Virus record (IMG/VR): IMGVR_UViG_3300043331_000272
Span: 1-32,492 of that record
Direction: 5' to 3' (one strand)
From: a virus
Length of the DNA stretch: 32,492 bases
The position numbers were made by a program, and so were the translations under genes. How positions within the stretch are numbered: the stretch's first letter is position 1; each line of letters opens with the position of its first letter. Positions 3,174 through 17,290 of this stretch are shown here, in pieces. Below the pieces are notes generated by a model. That model was given only the letters and a program-made list of their open reading frames with translations. It searched no databases and was not told where the DNA came from.

Positions 3174-3331
3174 TATTCACTGCCCGGATTGCGGTGCTAT
3201 CACTCGCGTCGAGAAGGATAACGAGTTTGTTTATCTAATTTGTACAGATGATGATTGCCCGCGCATCATCGTTTCCGCAATCAGCAGACCGAAAAACCCC
3301 TACCACTTACAAAGAGGTGATCTAGATGACT
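3148..3331 (+). repeat. Pair of 15-bp direct repeats flanking the 62-aa zinc-ribbon gene
   Basis: GTGATCTAGATGACT occurs at 3148-3162 and 3317-3331. Each copy spans the end of the ribosome binding site and the ATG of a gene (3157 and 3326), so a whole 169-bp gene unit lies between equivalent points. The same arrangement is seen at 12152/12360 and 23161/23348 with other sequences. Confidence 0.8.
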
Positions 3332-7137: not shown

Positions 7138-7612
7138 GAAGGAGCTGCCAAAGCCGGAACCAGCCTTATTCAGGCATTCATGCACACTCTATGAAGCCTT
7201 GTTAGAGAACTCTGCGAAGGAGGACGTGAGTGGTCATCAGTACGACGTTTTCAGGGGTTACCTGACCGATGCGTTCAACGGGGCGAGAATAAGTCAGCAG
7301 TATTATCCGGCCGTTTTCGCGTTACTCAGCGATTATGAGTGTATCGCCATACTCTCGCGTGGGGCACGTAACACCCCTTCATGTGTAGTTCTACTACAGC
7401 ACCCGAAGGATGCGAACGTTCCAGACGAGGCGAAAATATTTCAGCGAGACGGTCGATCCCCCTTGACACGCGCGGCGGACTTTGATAAGCTCGCGCAGCG
7501 GGTCGATAACCTCGCCAGGTCTGTTGGAGGCGTTAACCTGGTAGAACTGGTAAGTACAGTGGCTAACTTAGAGAAACGCATTCAACAGTTGGAAGTAAAG
7601 GAAGCAAAATAA
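7130..7612 (+). CDS. Hypothetical protein with C-terminal coiled coil (160 aa)
   Basis: The N-terminal part (residues 25-80) could form a winged-helix fold: helix YDVFRGYLTDAFNGARIS, then YYPAVFALLSDYECIAILSR, then a strand (CVVLLQHP). The C-terminus (LVELVSTVANLEKRIQQLEV) is a likely coiled coil for oligomerisation. A small DNA-binding regulator is possible but unproven. It is the last gene of the first small-gene block. Confidence 0.6.
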   Translation: MVKKELPKPEPALFRHSCTLYEALLENSAKEDVSGHQYDVFRGYLTDAFNGARISQQYYPAVFALLSDYECIAILSRGARNTPSCVVLLQHPKDANVPDEAKIFQRDGRSPLTRAADFDKLAQRVDNLARSVGGVNLVELVSTVANLEKRIQQLEVKEAK

Positions 7613-7639
7613 GCAGTAGTCCGATTGGAGAGGACTTAA

Positions 7640-8011
7640 ATGGCTAGGTCTAGGACCGAACCAACTAACACAAGTACACAGACAAAGGAGAGGAAAGTGG
7701 CAACTGCTCTTAATGCTGGTCGTATCGCTGAGCTTCTCGCTAAGCAGAAGTCTCGTGGCGATTACGATGCTGAGCTTCGTGAGTTCCTCGCAGGCGGAGA
7801 GGCTGGTATCGAAGTTCCGCTTACTGAGGGTCGTTTCACTGGCAAGTCTGCGAAGATGGTGCAGACTGGCTTCAATAACGCACGCAAGCGGACTAACGAG
7901 GGTGGACAGCCTGTTCATCCCGGTGGCTCTGCTGTTAAGGTCATCGTTGAGAAGGACGACTCCGATGTGGAGCATGTGTTCTTAATCAACACGGCCGTAG
8001 CGGCTGAGTAA
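7640..8011 (+). CDS. Conserved hypothetical phage protein (123 aa or 104 aa)
   Basis: Two starts have good ribosome binding sites: ATG 7640 (GGAGAGG upstream) and in-frame GTG 7697 (AAAGGAGAGG upstream). The shorter form begins ATALNAGRIAELLAKQKSRG, where the conserved-looking part starts; the longer form adds a Thr-rich basic stretch. The core (EFLAGGEAGIEVPLTEGRFT) is acidic/Gly-rich and the C-terminus is beta-rich. A strong terminator hairpin follows 8 bases after the stop, suggesting a well-expressed gene. Function unknown. Confidence 0.7.
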   Translation: MARSRTEPTNTSTQTKERKVATALNAGRIAELLAKQKSRGDYDAELREFLAGGEAGIEVPLTEGRFTGKSAKMVQTGFNNARKRTNEGGQPVHPGGSAVKVIVEKDDSDVEHVFLINTAVAAE

Positions 8012-8018
8012 CAGTTCC

Positions 8019-8052
8019 ACTATGGAGGGGCCTTAACCGGCCCCTTCATAGT
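8019..8052 (+). terminator. Strong hairpin, probable terminator
   Basis: 14-bp stem 8019-8032/8039-8052 with one G-T pair and a 6-nt loop (TTAACC), core GGGGCC/GGCCCC. It begins 8 bases after the stop of the gene at 7640. There is no long T run, so termination efficiency is uncertain; the near-perfect symmetry could serve both strands. Confidence 0.7.
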
Positions 8053-8096
8053 TGTGCTACCTAGTCCCCATCCCCCCCGATGCACTAGGTAGCACA
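8053..8096 (+). promoter_or_regulatory. Second 13-bp hairpin with C-rich 18-nt loop
   Basis: TGTGCTACCTAGT (8053-8065) pairs perfectly with 8084-8096. The loop holds seven consecutive C residues. It abuts the terminator-like hairpin with no bases between. It may be a tandem terminator, an RNA-stability element or a presented C-rich binding site; the sequence does not tell which. Confidence 0.55.
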
Positions 8097-8136
8097 CCTA
8101 TGAAGTGTTCCAAGACAAGTGGTGCCCTGGGCTTAA

Positions 8137-8245
8137 CGCTAACAAGAACTAAGGGAAGCTAGCTTAACTTAGGGGCGGTTAGTATTAGCGAAACCATATT
8201 AGAAACAAACCCACTAAAAGACTGACGCAGGGCATTAGTGGGTTT
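8137..8245 (+). promoter_or_regulatory. Structured leader upstream of the secreted acidic protein
   Basis: A nested structure (CGCTAA 8137-8142 with TTAGCG 8185-8190; CTAAG 8149-8153 with CTTAG 8168-8172) is followed by a perfect 10-bp hairpin (8207-8216 with 8236-8245, AAACCCACTA) that ends 5 bases before the ribosome binding site of the gene at 8262. A loose promoter match (CTGACG, 17 bases, TATATA at 8245) overlaps the hairpin but is weak. Together with the two upstream hairpins the 250-bp intergenic region is almost fully structured. Confidence 0.45.
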
Positions 8246-8261
8246 ATATATAAGGAGAGGT

Positions 8262-8618
8262 ATGAAAAGGTTATTAGTTCTAATTCTTGCGTTTGCCGCA
8301 GTCGCCTTTGTACCGGGCGTAGCAACAGCAGATGATTACGACGAGTACGGTAACCTGATTTCATTTCCAGGTTTTGTCTGGAATTCAATTGACGATGATA
8401 CAAGCAACGATCCTACACCAGATGAAATTTGGGATGAGTGGTACGGACAACCTACTGATGAGGATGAAACAGACGACCCATTCGGAGGGATTCTTCCGTC
8501 GCCTGGAGAAACTCCTTGGATTATTCCCCATCCCCCTGTAAGTCATGAGTTTTCCCCCTATACAGAGTACATTAACTGTTGGGAACCGGAACATGCAGAT
8601 CAGGAATACTGCTATTAA
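8262..8618 (+). CDS. Secreted acidic protein (118 aa)
   Basis: ATG 8262 follows AAGGAGAGG. Residues 1-23 are a signal peptide: MKR, hydrophobic LLVLILAFAAVAFVPG, then VATA before DDY as cleavage site. The mature part is very acidic and Pro/Trp-rich (DDDTSNDPTPDEIWDEWYG) and ends with a short segment containing two Cys that may form a disulfide. It is exported by the Sec route. Neighbouring structured RNA regions and a secreted muralytic enzyme downstream suggest a role at the infected cell's envelope, but that is inference. Confidence 0.75.
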   Translation: MKRLLVLILAFAAVAFVPGVATADDYDEYGNLISFPGFVWNSIDDDTSNDPTPDEIWDEWYGQPTDEDETDDPFGGILPSPGETPWIIPHPPVSHEFSPYTEYINCWEPEHADQEYCY

Positions 8619-8620
8619 GC

Positions 8621-8791
8621 ATTGGTAGTCACGAGGCGGGAGACACTCTAACGGAACGGATTAGTGGCAACCTATATGAGCCTACTATGACGGCTACACG
8701 GAACGGTAGTCCTAGAGTGATTCGATAGGGGAGGCGTGGTTCAAACTAGTGAAAGCGCGTGAGTAGCTAGGGAGAGGTAGTGACTACCAAT
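8621..8791 (+). ncRNA. Candidate multi-helix structured RNA closed by a 12-bp helix
   Basis: No ORF lies here. ATTGGTAGTCAC (8621-8632) pairs perfectly with 8780-8791 over 147 bases. Inside: CACTCTA 8644-8650 with TAGAGTG 8713-8719; within that, TAGTGGC 8662-8668 with 8680-8687 (one bulge) and GGCTAC 8692-8697 with GTAGTC 8706-8711 (one G-T pair), loop ACGGAACG. The word ACGGAACGG occurs twice, at 8651-8659 and in the last loop (8698-8706). Nested, compatible helices argue for an RNA fold; a replication origin or protein-binding site remains possible. Confidence 0.55.
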
Positions 8792-8827: not shown

Positions 8828-8872
8828 GGGGGGTTAGGACAGGTTTTGTGGGCTACCTGTCTCTAACCCCCC
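8828..8872 (+). terminator. 17-bp hairpin with one bulge
   Basis: GGGGGGTTAG-GACAGGT (8828-8844) pairs with 8855-8872, with a single bulged T at 8862 and a 10-nt loop. It is one of the strongest hairpins in the window. The following bases (ACAGTTGATTTT) give only a late, weak T run. It separates the two structured RNA candidates and may end the transcript covering 8621-8791. The arm contains AACCCCCCACAG, one base longer than the dispersed 12-bp word. Confidence 0.6.
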
Positions 8873-8917
8873 ACAGTTGATTTTACCACTTGACTTTAGG
8901 AGAAGATTATGCTAGTG

Positions 8918-9088
8918 TGGCTTATGCCCGCAAGGTGGCTAAGAACCTTGATTACAGTTCTACACGATAGAGTTGTAATGAGGGTTCCTTGTAACCCCAT
9001 AGGGAACTCTCCCCGAGCGACGGCCTGCTTAGTTGGGTTTAGGTGCCGCAGACACCTCCAACTAGTAATAGCGGGCCGTTGCTTTTTC
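8918..9088 (+). ncRNA. Candidate small RNA: four hairpins ending in an intrinsic terminator
   Basis: Hairpin A: CTTA/TAAG plus GCC/GGC (8921-8928 with 8937-8943). Hairpin B: 11 bp, 8951-8961 with 8969-8979, two wobble pairs. Hairpin C: 9 to 11 bp, 8980-8988 with 9003-9011. Hairpin D: 13 bp, 9017-9029 with 9070-9082, continuing to 7 bp (9030-9036/9058-9064) and 5 bp (9041-9045/9053-9057), then TTTTT at 9083-9087. The G-U-tolerant pairing and U tract indicate RNA. A 66-codon ORF (8909-9109) overlaps but is less convincing. The 5' end is not defined. Confidence 0.6.
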
Positions 9089-9112
9089 TGTCCCCCAACT
9101 GGAGGTTAACTA

Positions 9113-9466
9113 GTGCGTAAGCTGTTGATACTAAGTGCCTGTTCAGTAACAATTTCATTAACTACAACAGGCATGACAAGCACAGCCCAAGCAAGCAAAT
9201 CACCAGTAAGGAAAGTATTAAGCACACAGCAGATAATCTGCCATGTGTTCCGTGGTTACTGTTATGAAGCGTTAAGAGTCGCATGGTGTGAATCTCGATT
9301 TAGTATCTGGGCAAGTAATGGTCAGTATTTAGGACTATTTCAGATGGGTTCAGGTGAGCGTGCGAGATTCGGTCATGGTAATAATGCGTGGGATCAAGCA
9401 AGAGCAGCCTATAGGTATTTCGTTCTCTCAGGACGAGACTGGTCGCCTTGGGCTTGTAAACCCTAG
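9113..9466 (+). CDS. Secreted lysozyme/transglycosylase-like protein (117 aa)
   Basis: GTG start with GGAGG nine bases upstream. Residues 1-27 form a signal peptide (MRKLLILSACSVTISLTTTG..., cleavage near TAQA-S). The mature domain (residues 45-117) has the hallmarks of the actinobacterial lysozyme-like/SLT fold: ALRVAWCESRF with the catalytic Glu of the E-S-R motif, GQYLGLFQMGS, RFGHG and a C-terminal SGRDWSPWAC. It should cut peptidoglycan outside the membrane. It is far from the lysis cassette, so an early role in wall remodelling is inferred. Confidence 0.85.
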   Translation: MRKLLILSACSVTISLTTTGMTSTAQASKSPVRKVLSTQQIICHVFRGYCYEALRVAWCESRFSIWASNGQYLGLFQMGSGERARFGHGNNAWDQARAAYRYFVLSGRDWSPWACKP

Positions 9467-10217: not shown

Positions 10218-10403
10218 ATGCACTTGACACAACAGGAGTGGACAGAGGAGCTTGCCGCTCAACTCGAAGATAGACCTCTTGTAACAGAGCACAGACAAAG
10301 TCCCGTAATCGTTCAAATTGTGTCAGAGACGACGGACACGGTTCTACCTATTACGGACGTATGTTTGGAGGACGGCGTTATTAAGGTGCGGGTGTCAGCA
10401 TGA
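10218..10403 (+). CDS. Hypothetical protein (61 aa)
   Basis: ATG after AAGGGAGAGGTT. An N-terminal helix (LTQQEWTEELAAQLED) is followed by beta strands (SPVIVQIVSET, VCLEDGVIKVRV). ATGA overlap with the next gene. Unassigned; its position just ahead of the helicase suggests membership in the replication operon. Confidence 0.65.
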   Translation: MHLTQQEWTEELAAQLEDRPLVTEHRQSPVIVQIVSETTDTVLPITDVCLEDGVIKVRVSA

Positions 10404-13245: not shown

Positions 13246-13300
13246 CCGGCCGGACGTGCTTAACGCGCTTAACGCGCTTGACAGGCTGCTCGTCGCGTGA
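13121..13300 (+). CDS. Overlapping ORF, small membrane-like protein (59 aa)
   Basis: ATG 13121 opens a +1 frame inside the HTH gene and continues 55 bases past its stop. The product starts MALILEADVSERFSAVTTTF and has a hydrophobic stretch (LTQLIVILMLITGFGA, about residues 23-38) that could span a membrane, then a Leu-periodic end (VLNALNALDRLLVA). The ribosome binding site is poor. The coding-like tail beyond 13245 is the best argument. It could be a true overlapping gene, a frameshift product of the HTH gene, or chance. Confidence 0.4.
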   Translation: MALILEADVSERFSAVTTTFTALTQLIVILMLITGFGADGFNRPDVLNALNALDRLLVA

Positions 13301-13345
13301 TAAGGTGCCCCACGCCCACCGACCAGACCGGCGGGCTACTGCTGG

Positions 13346-13393
13346 TAGAGGGGTTAACCACATCAATTGCGGCGTTGTCGGTTAACCCCTCTA
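13346..13393 (+). terminator. 14-bp perfect hairpin, probable terminator
   Basis: TAGAGGGGTTAACC (13346-13359) pairs with 13380-13393 around a 20-nt loop. It lies between the HTH gene and the nuclease gene. No T run follows (AACCCAATT). The bases 13246-13345 before it are GC-rich and contain a tandem CTTAACGCG repeat (two units) within the overlapping ORF. Confidence 0.6.
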
Positions 13394-13413
13394 ACCCAAT
13401 TAGACCCCTACAG

Positions 13414-13426
13414 GGTATTTAATACC
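13414..13426. promoter_or_regulatory. Short dyad GGTATT-T-AATACC, possible operator
   Basis: A perfect 6-bp dyad with a 1-base centre lies just upstream of the GGAGG site of the nuclease gene at 13446. Its size suits a repressor half-site pair rather than an RNA hairpin. No -35/-10 pair is obvious next to it, so the regulatory role is only suggested. Confidence 0.3.
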
Positions 13427-13445
13427 AGCTAGGAGGCTTCGCAGT

Positions 13446-14765
13446 ATGGTTAAGGTAATGAAAGGTGTTGTAGGCTTAAAGCCTCCACCGAATCCAAGCA
13501 AGTGGGACGTGCTCCCGTTGCATACTAGTGATAGGGCCACTTTCAAGGCGTGCAGGCGTCGGTGGTCTTACAGTTCTCCTGCGACACGTAATCTCGTGCC
13601 ACGAACCAACATCTATGGTATTACCGAGGCTTTGTGGTTCGGTACGGGTATTCATCATGCGTTACAAAAGTTCTATAGTCCCGTACTACATGAGGACCCC
13701 GTAGCAGCCTGGACTGAGTGGTATGAGTTACAGTGGTCCGGCGGCTTGATAGACCAATCAATGCTAAGCGAGTTTGCTGACCGCGACCCAACACCCCATG
13801 CAACCATCGAAAACGTGTGGGTCGTAGCTGGCCTGCAAGACGTGCTTCCTGACCCTGATCCAGAGTTGTTCGAGAACTACAAACAACTTGGGATAGGCAT
13901 GATGGAGTTTTACAAGACTTATGCCGCCAAGAACGATAACTTCTCTGTTATCGCAGTTGAGCATGAGTTCAGTGTACCTGTCTTTAATCCAGTCACAGGT
14001 GACACCATGTATGCGATTGACACGAGAGTTATGCCTAAAGACTGGACTCCAAACGAAATCCATACTGCTGCTAACCATTGGGTGACAGATGAGCAGCAGG
14101 CGTGTTGGAAGCCTGTTCATGCTAGAGGTCGTATTGACCTTGTGGTGCAAGACCTTGATTCAGGTCAATTCGGAATCATGGATCACAAAACCGCAGGTCG
14201 TGTCGATGATGACTACTTTAGACACTTGGACTTAGACGACCAAGTGACTACTTATGCGTGGGCTGCTGAACAAGAAGCCTTGCTCCATGACCTGGAATAC
14301 AAGCAAATCGACTTCATTATTTACCAGGCGCTTCGTAAAGCCTACCCAAAACCGCCCACAATGCTACAAAGTGGCAAGCCCTCAGTTGACCGTCAAAAGG
14401 AGTCAACCACCGCTGATCTGTTTGAAGCCTGCATCAAGGAAAACAATCTTGAGCTGGTGTTCAACAACTCAGTGCAATTACAAGCCTACTACACATGGCT
14501 CGTGGAACAGGGCGATAAGCTGTTTATCCAGCGAGACGTGATTCATCGCAATAAGTGGCAGAAAGCTGCGTTAGGCAGTCGCCTCTATTACGAGGCTGAG
14601 GACATGCTAGACATAGTTGACAAGCCCGAGAAGCACTACCCGAACCCACGTAAGGAATACGCCTGTCTCAATTGCCAGTTTCGTGCTCCTTGTGGTGCTC
14701 AAGAGATGGGCTACGACTACGAGGCCATGCTGGCAGATGGGTATATTAGTAACTATGACAGATAA
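13446..14765 (+). CDS. Cas4/RecB-like PD-(D/E)XK nuclease (439 aa)
   Basis: ATG after TAGGAGG. The catalytic core shows GRIDLVVQDL followed by GIMDHKT (Asp246, Lys248), the D-x-K form of the PD-(D/E)XK motif. Cys36 near the N-terminus plus Cys407, Cys410 and Cys416 (CLNCQFRAPC) match the one-plus-three Cys iron-sulfur staple of Cas4 and AddB nucleases. WFGTGIHHALQKFY is the usual His-containing early motif. It likely resects DNA ends for phage recombination together with the Sak4-like protein downstream. Confidence 0.88.
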   Translation: MVKVMKGVVGLKPPPNPSKWDVLPLHTSDRATFKACRRRWSYSSPATRNLVPRTNIYGITEALWFGTGIHHALQKFYSPVLHEDPVAAWTEWYELQWSGGLIDQSMLSEFADRDPTPHATIENVWVVAGLQDVLPDPDPELFENYKQLGIGMMEFYKTYAAKNDNFSVIAVEHEFSVPVFNPVTGDTMYAIDTRVMPKDWTPNEIHTAANHWVTDEQQACWKPVHARGRIDLVVQDLDSGQFGIMDHKTAGRVDDDYFRHLDLDDQVTTYAWAAEQEALLHDLEYKQIDFIIYQALRKAYPKPPTMLQSGKPSVDRQKESTTADLFEACIKENNLELVFNNSVQLQAYYTWLVEQGDKLFIQRDVIHRNKWQKAALGSRLYYEAEDMLDIVDKPEKHYPNPRKEYACLNCQFRAPCGAQEMGYDYEAMLADGYISNYDR

Positions 14766-16711: not shown

Positions 16712-17290
16712 ATGAGTCCGTTGCTTAACCTCGCTGATGCTGATACCAGTGGTTTTGGAGCAATCCCTGGTGGAACGTATGACGCTGAAATCTTCGCTGC
16801 GAAGATGGAAGCAACGAAGGGGCCTACGGAGAACAATCCTAATCCCAAGCTCCCCAAGGGTACACCAATGATTAACGTTCAGTTCAAGATCGTTGGTGGC
16901 CCTGTTCCTGAGGACGCTCCTGCGGATAAGCAGGCAGACTATGGCGAGGGGTACATCTACCACAACAGGCGTGTGTTCAGGACTTTCGTGATCCCGCCTG
17001 AGAAGATCAATGGTAAGAAGTACGACAACGCTGCCCGCATGAAGGGCATTCTTGTTAGGTTCTTGCAGGCTGCGGGTTACTCTGACGAGGAACTTGGTAG
17101 CGAGGAATTCGATCTGAACGTAGAGGACCTTGCTAGTAGACCTGTCAGTGTTGTCGTTGCTATGAAGGTGAAGTACGGCTTAAATACTGAGGCCGATGAC
17201 TTCGATTCAAACGACCCTGAGAACTACGACAACGAAGTCACGGGTGTTAAGCCTCCACGTGTAACCGCTGGTGGTTCTGGCTTAACGTAA
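16712..17290 (+). CDS. SSB-like DUF669-type protein (192 aa)
   Basis: ATG after CTAGGAGCTAACAC. The pattern FGAIPGGTYDAEIFAAKMEA, then MINVQFKIVGG and NRRVFRTFVI, followed by a helical GILVRFLQAAGYSDEEL section, matches proteins of the DUF669/phage SSB type that follow Sak4 genes. Probably binds single-stranded DNA; the C-terminus is acidic before a Gly-rich end. The 41 bases before the start hold a possible 11-codon TTG mini-ORF of unclear value. Confidence 0.75.
   Translation: MSPLLNLADADTSGFGAIPGGTYDAEIFAAKMEATKGPTENNPNPKLPKGTPMINVQFKIVGGPVPEDAPADKQADYGEGYIYHNRRVFRTFVIPPEKINGKKYDNAARMKGILVRFLQAAGYSDEELGSEEFDLNVEDLASRPVSVVVAMKVKYGLNTEADDFDSNDPENYDNEVTGVKPPRVTAGGSGLT

Follow-up and report, generated by a model that had tools for sequence, protein, structure and literature searches.

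The segment from 8925 to 9087 on the plus strand of the window (the whole stretch of 32,492 nucleotides analysed here, which comes from a soil phage) is best read as a gene for a non-coding phage RNA of about 163 nt. A promoter and a terminator of its own enclose a structured segment without a credible reading frame, as would be expected of an autonomous phage small RNA. The first-pass annotation had proposed that a small non-coding phage RNA, likely an abundant one, is encoded here. This proposal is supported by a conserved promoter, the terminator, a strand-specific fold and the failure of the overlapping ORF in coding tests; the abundance was not tested. We lean towards the view that the RNA acts in trans on early messages of the phage by means of its hairpin loops, a pairing that is inferred. 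Throughout this phage family a promoter-driven RNA is kept at one place of the genome, and its loops change together with repeated sense motifs of the genomes. This suggests a function that can be put to the test, namely that the phage controls its own messages by RNA, and it makes the targets easy to recognise from nothing but the sequence.

The start of the RNA is inferred from the promoter and its end from a T-run. Hairpin 1 (8931-8950, 6 bp) and hairpin 2 (8951-8979, 12 bp with two G-T pairs) are present in both the MFE and the centroid structure. Hairpin 3 (8980-9011) has 13 bp with three G-T pairs and exposes the loop AACCCC at 8993-8998. Hairpin 4 (9015-9084) is a long composite stem enclosing an inner hairpin, and together with the TTTTT at 9083-9087 it constitutes, by sequence and fold, an intrinsic terminator (9015-9087). 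Four tandem hairpins almost without spacers, the last followed directly by five T, had been described in the first-pass annotation, and both features were recovered at the same place: the spacers measure 0, 0 and 3 nt, and none of the first three hairpins has a T-run. The untrimmed interval folds with -78.8 kcal/mol compared with -52.1 +/- 4.2 kcal/mol for dinucleotide shuffles (z = -6.3), and the predicted transcript alone (8925-9087/9089) reaches z = -7.5, with none of 200 shuffles as strong. The opposite strand of the longer, untrimmed interval reaches only z = -3.9 because the G-T pairs are lost there. The structure is therefore one of a plus-strand RNA, in agreement with the earlier remark that the G-T pairs are meaningful only at the RNA level. 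In a scan of 540 pieces of 120 nt the region was among the strongest folds without being the top one; the region 7981-8160, located just 3' of the gene at 7640-8011, is stronger (z about -11).

Directly 5' of the hairpin stack lies a promoter, P2 (8890-8918, plus strand), which had not been noticed before. It consists of TTGACT, a 17-nt spacer ending in TGC and the -10 element TAGTGT, and thus of the extended -10 type. A motif scan detected three copies of this motif in the window, the other two being P1 (7463-7491) and P3 (13278-13306), both on the plus strand. P3 also precedes a structured leader (13321-13440, z = -4.7; region 13278-13445), located before an exonuclease-like gene.

For comparison we used a family of uncultivated IMG/VR phages retrieved with the helicase and the exonuclease-like gene as baits, with the longest contigs about 55-60 kb in length. 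The DUF3987 protein as bait retrieved no relatives, and a comparison of the window with 50,697 phage records revealed no DNA similarity. A P2-type promoter is present at the syntenic position in about 35 of the related phages, 5' of the helicase and of a gene for a lysozyme-like or zinc-finger protein. Within 682 kb from 35 loci, 129 copies of the strict motif were counted in sense and two in antisense orientation. One locus (L103), with a promoter match that is not followed by the usual structure, was excluded from the final tests. The position of P2 is conserved, the sequence of the RNA is not. This holds even for the nearest relative (L154/L030), in which the promoter is followed by a hairpin RNA that again cannot be aligned. 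Because none of the fetched loci contains a relative alignable to 8925-9087, a covariation test was impossible for this RNA. In the window the RNA is followed by a gene for a secreted protein resembling a lysozyme or transglycosylase (9113-9466, plus strand), which is syntenic in the relatives and the product of which gave no Pfam match. The next copy of the promoter motif after P2 is found at 13278 (motif scan only; promoters of other types are not excluded).

The RNAs behind P2 in the relatives have no sequence similarity to the window RNA but are built alike: the 5' end is occupied by a short hairpin, the loop of which is often C-rich, and behind it stands a strong, long, terminator-like hairpin with a variable loop and sometimes a T-run. 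A C-rich hairpin loop within the first 110 nt was found in 21 of 35 P2 RNAs, the window RNA included, in contrast to 1-7 in shuffled sets, and in about a dozen of them the loop is exactly CTCCCGT. In many relatives the loops of the P2 RNA are complementary to 7-mers that occur in excess, in sense orientation, in the phage's own genome. The complement of CTCCCGT, ACGGGAG, is frequent mainly in genomes which carry this loop (mostly 8-21 sense copies on whole records compared with mostly 0-3 elsewhere) and is located mostly near or before start codons, which applies, for instance, to 10 of the 11 L058 sites and to 8 of the 12 L063 sites. Many of these sites are, judged from their sequence and position, putative ribosome-binding sites. 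Other loops match other motifs: CCTGTGCT in L033 is complementary to AGCACAG (23 copies), TTCGCGGTT in L002 to ACCGCGA (11), TTTGTCGTCGG in L045 to GACGACA (14), ACTTGCGC in L058 to GCGCAAG (15) and GGTGGGTTT in L063 to AACCCAC (9). The locus-wide most over-represented 7-mer is the complement of a segment of the P2 RNA in L002, L033, L045, L058, L063 and L073, and likewise in two of 13 later-fetched genomes, L095 and L116. At least six different loop/site pairs were seen.

When RNAs were swapped between genomes, the own RNA matched its genome far better than foreign ones (z = 7.7, p = 1e-4, which is the floor, with no permutation as high). The test gave z = 6.4 for the genomes without the TCCCGT loop and, for just the 13 genomes added later, z = 1.9 (p = 0.04). 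The controls, consisting of sense k-mers, leaders of other promoters and shifted segments, gave z = 0.4-3.3. Since control segments reach 3.3, part of the matching signal is due to shared composition; the complementarity of the loops to their own genome exceeds these controls. In about half of the relatives seed enrichment is weak or absent, and the number of independent cases is lower than the number of genomes because related genomes share RNAs. A 7-mer match in a single genome could in principle reflect mere codon usage; the swap and segment controls argue against this explanation in general.

On whole records the sites reach their highest density in the early arm and keep to one strand along it; beyond this arm they are found on the other strand. 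In G013, AGCACAG occurs almost only on the plus strand up to 24.5 kb, and beyond this position it is sparser and on the minus strand. This pattern is as expected if the sites follow the messages. The scattered sites, which are complementary to the loop of the terminator hairpin, lie mostly within coding sequence. The CTCCCGT type directed at ribosome-binding sites and the scattered type may represent two activities of one RNA.

No corresponding site set was detected for the window RNA itself. In a search for complementary over-represented sites none was found, and the window's own RNA ranked 11th of 22; the 6- and 7-mers of its loops occur in the window at chance level, and a seed search with 6-, 7- and 8-mers, in start regions or with single loops, was without a significant result. 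The record covers a fragment of 32 kb. As no loop/site pair was found in it, a role of the window RNA in trans is inferred from the relatives only. A comparison of the RNA region and of 14 relatives with Rfam (to E = 10 and E = 1) revealed no match beyond chance level, the best one being a nematode sRNA model just under its gathering score. On the whole window only two tRNAs were identified, at gathering and at permissive thresholds.

In the model that we prefer, RNA polymerase would start at P2 and produce a compact transcript about 160 nt in length. Most transcripts would end at the terminator hairpin (9015-9087), and the remaining ones would continue into the genes for the lysozyme-like protein and for replication, a block that appears to have no other promoter of the P2 motif up to 13278. 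The released RNA, the accumulation of which is inferred, would most likely pair loop-to-message and in trans with early messages of the same phage. Ribosome-binding sites would be masked by the C-rich loops, whereas the terminator hairpin would pair, by its variable loop, with sites distributed along the early transcripts. Such pairing in the cell would probably lower translation or stability of the early messages as infection proceeds; the direction of the effect has not been shown. A more specific version of this model is possible, and we offer it only tentatively: a fast-evolving RNA at a fixed place whose loop serves as a genome-specific key, changing together with dozens of short sense sites of its own genome, and which thus commands a private regulon over the early messages. 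The window RNA would be a member with a key that has not been recognised. If this is true, the regulon could be a self-recognition or early-shutoff system.

The most serious alternative, although in our opinion an unlikely one, is that the RNA is only a cis-acting leader. Transcription from P2 would be held up at the terminator as long as neither a phage factor nor the RNA itself permits passage, and the short RNA would be a by-product. The order of promoter, structured leader, terminator and a gene block without a further promoter of the P2 motif is compatible with this explanation, and so is the finding that the position but not the sequence is kept in the relatives. However, it leaves unexplained why the loops are complementary to over-represented sense motifs genome-wide, also outside the P2 operon. 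Still less probable is that the hairpins are merely a stack of terminators or insulating elements between two gene blocks, without a function of their own as RNA. Other strong hairpins nearby (8019-8096 and 8828-8872) and the presence of a T-run only behind the last of the four would fit such a stack, but the C-rich loops exceed those of shuffled sets, and the conserved promoter lies immediately ahead of the stack, so that the hairpins open a transcript and do not close one.

The 66-codon ORF at 8909-9109 (plus strand), to which the first-pass annotation had ascribed an unusual Cys/Arg-rich product, does exist. Its codon score of -0.18 per codon was the lowest of nine ORFs tested, no relatives of its product were detected in the fetched loci, and neither PHROGs nor Pfam provided a match. 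The ATG is located inside P2, upstream of the predicted RNA start at about 8925, and the Shine-Dalgarno-like AGGAG ahead of it belongs to the spacer of this conserved promoter; an RNA started at P2 therefore lacks the ATG of the ORF. We judge the ORF spurious and not a gene on the P2 RNA. That it nevertheless encodes a 66-residue protein, with the structure being incidental or regulating translation, is very improbable in the light of these data, even though AGGAG precedes the ATG and the stop codon lies just ahead of the next start codon. The case is a trap for annotation, since a promoter and an RNA gene here pass for a plausible small ORF preceded by a Shine-Dalgarno sequence. Equally hard to maintain is the idea that the matches in the relatives are a DNA-level polarity signal, such as a replication or packaging motif, with the inverse copy behind P2 as a DNA feature and not an antisense RNA: the motifs are strand-biased and repeated, and genome architecture could bias them, but in G013 and G017 the bias changes strand from one genome arm to the other (in the window the two arms are transcribed in opposite directions), many ACGGGAG sites appear to be ribosome-binding sites, and the inverse copy is located in the loop of an RNA hairpin that follows a promoter.

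Among known systems, the PR' leader of lambda ('6S' RNA) with its terminator tR' combines a constitutive promoter with a short terminated RNA, and further genes are reached by read-through; in HK022, the tandem hairpins of the put RNA act on the polymerase. The P2 RNAs resemble the PR'/tR' arrangement in having a promoter and a terminator before genes without another promoter of the P2 motif, as far as the motif scan can tell. They differ in that the downstream block comprises lysozyme-like and replication genes, that no antiterminator was identified and that the RNA loops match many genome sites in the relatives.

By analogy, the 6C/B11 sRNA of Mycobacterium seems closest in working principle, and the RNAs of phages L5/D29 and WC1 seem closest in setting. 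The hairpins of 6C/B11 expose C-rich loops, by which the RNA binds several mRNAs at their G-rich ribosome-binding regions (PMC10470900, citing Mai et al. 2019 on 6C). The likeness consists of a short RNA with C-rich hairpin loops; the window RNA has one such loop (AACCCC), and two are not the rule in the related RNAs. Complementarity to putative ribosome-binding sites was seen in the relatives, not in the window. Unlike 6C/B11, the P2 RNAs are phage-encoded, their loop varies between phages together with the sites, and their terminator hairpin provides a second loop, which is variable. The Rfam covariance model of 6C matched neither the window region nor the 14 relatives. The mycobacteriophages L5, D29 and StarStuff produce stable non-coding RNAs (Pleft transcript) from an early phage promoter; the transcribed region measures about 500 bp, lies at the right end of the genome and has no evident canonical terminator, the RNA is of unknown function, and transcript levels of downstream genes fall by over 90% after it (PMC5712189). 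The RNA described here differs in being about 160 nt long, internal, provided with a terminator and located before the lysozyme/replication block. For Rhodococcus phage WC1 highly expressed non-coding RNAs were described in an actinophage; the accessible part of that report contains no matching of loops to the genome (PMC10986025).

The first-pass annotation had also considered a neighbouring element, beginning at 8621, as a possible second non-coding RNA, and this was confirmed. The segment 8621-8791 (module A, plus strand) represents a separate structured RNA family which is apparently undescribed. An outer helix (8621-8632/8780-8791) encloses a core loop, GTGAAAGCGCGTGAGTAG, at 8749-8766. 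Six related genomes also contain module A, usually at a different position (L002:15217-15314, L033 at about 16930-17035, L053 at about 10292-10396, L060 at about 7935-8040, L062, and L067 at about 14230-14380), with a constant core GTGAAAGCGCGTNAGTAG in a small stem plus GGGAAGGGTGGTTCAA. In an alignment of six rows, of which L060 and L062 resemble each other closely and those of the window and L067 were used without their module B insert, the covariation analysis proposed earlier could be performed on this neighbour. The result was strong, with compensatory changes in 12 of 16 pairs of the outer helix and one inner helix, both defined by hand; 94.6% of cells were paired compared with 29-43% when slid. 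In a pattern scan of the public collection all matches to module A came from this phage family, except for a single one that lacks the fold. The core pattern gave five matches without the fold in bacterial genomes, which were taken as chance. Between L067 and the window, 57 nt of module A are 96% identical, whereas the helicases share only about 51% identity, which suggests a recent exchange.

Inserted in module A of the window is a further element, module B (ACGGAACGG ... ACGGCTACACGGAACGGTAGTCC, 8651-8712, plus strand, limits approximate). With the form ACGGAACGG ... CGGCTACACGGAACGGTAGTCC it is inserted in module A in two phages, the window and L067 (about 14255-14305), and it stands alone in L119 (about 3222-3275), closed by a helix of its own. 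Two genomes contain other over-represented motifs. In L065 a site at about 16580 is the only complement there of the top sense 7-mers (TATTAGA and ATTAGAT, 10-11 copies), as if it were the loop of another RNA. In L134, TCGATCG occurs in 13 copies compared with 0.6 expected from relatives; it is nearly palindromic and perhaps a protein or methylation site.

Between the two RNAs of the window lies a strong hairpin (8828-8872, plus strand) with a loop of about TTTTGTGGGC and without a T-run. Two strong hairpins at 8019-8096 (plus strand), 3' of the gene at 7640-8011, probably mark the end of the upstream transcription unit, and hairpins are present at the equivalent place in L002, L006 and L007. 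The hairpin arrays of this intergenic zone reach z about -11 in the window (one 120-nt piece) and z = -12.7 in L002 (376 nt), where they occupy 7560-7935 and 8270-8465; in both genomes their strength is far above the needs of a terminator. At 7690-7770 of L002 the GTGAAGGTGCGACAGTAG core is also located within a long perfect hairpin, and the loop of this hairpin, TGCGACA, could by eye form a pseudoknot with TGTCGCA, which lies just 3' of it and to which it is exactly complementary.
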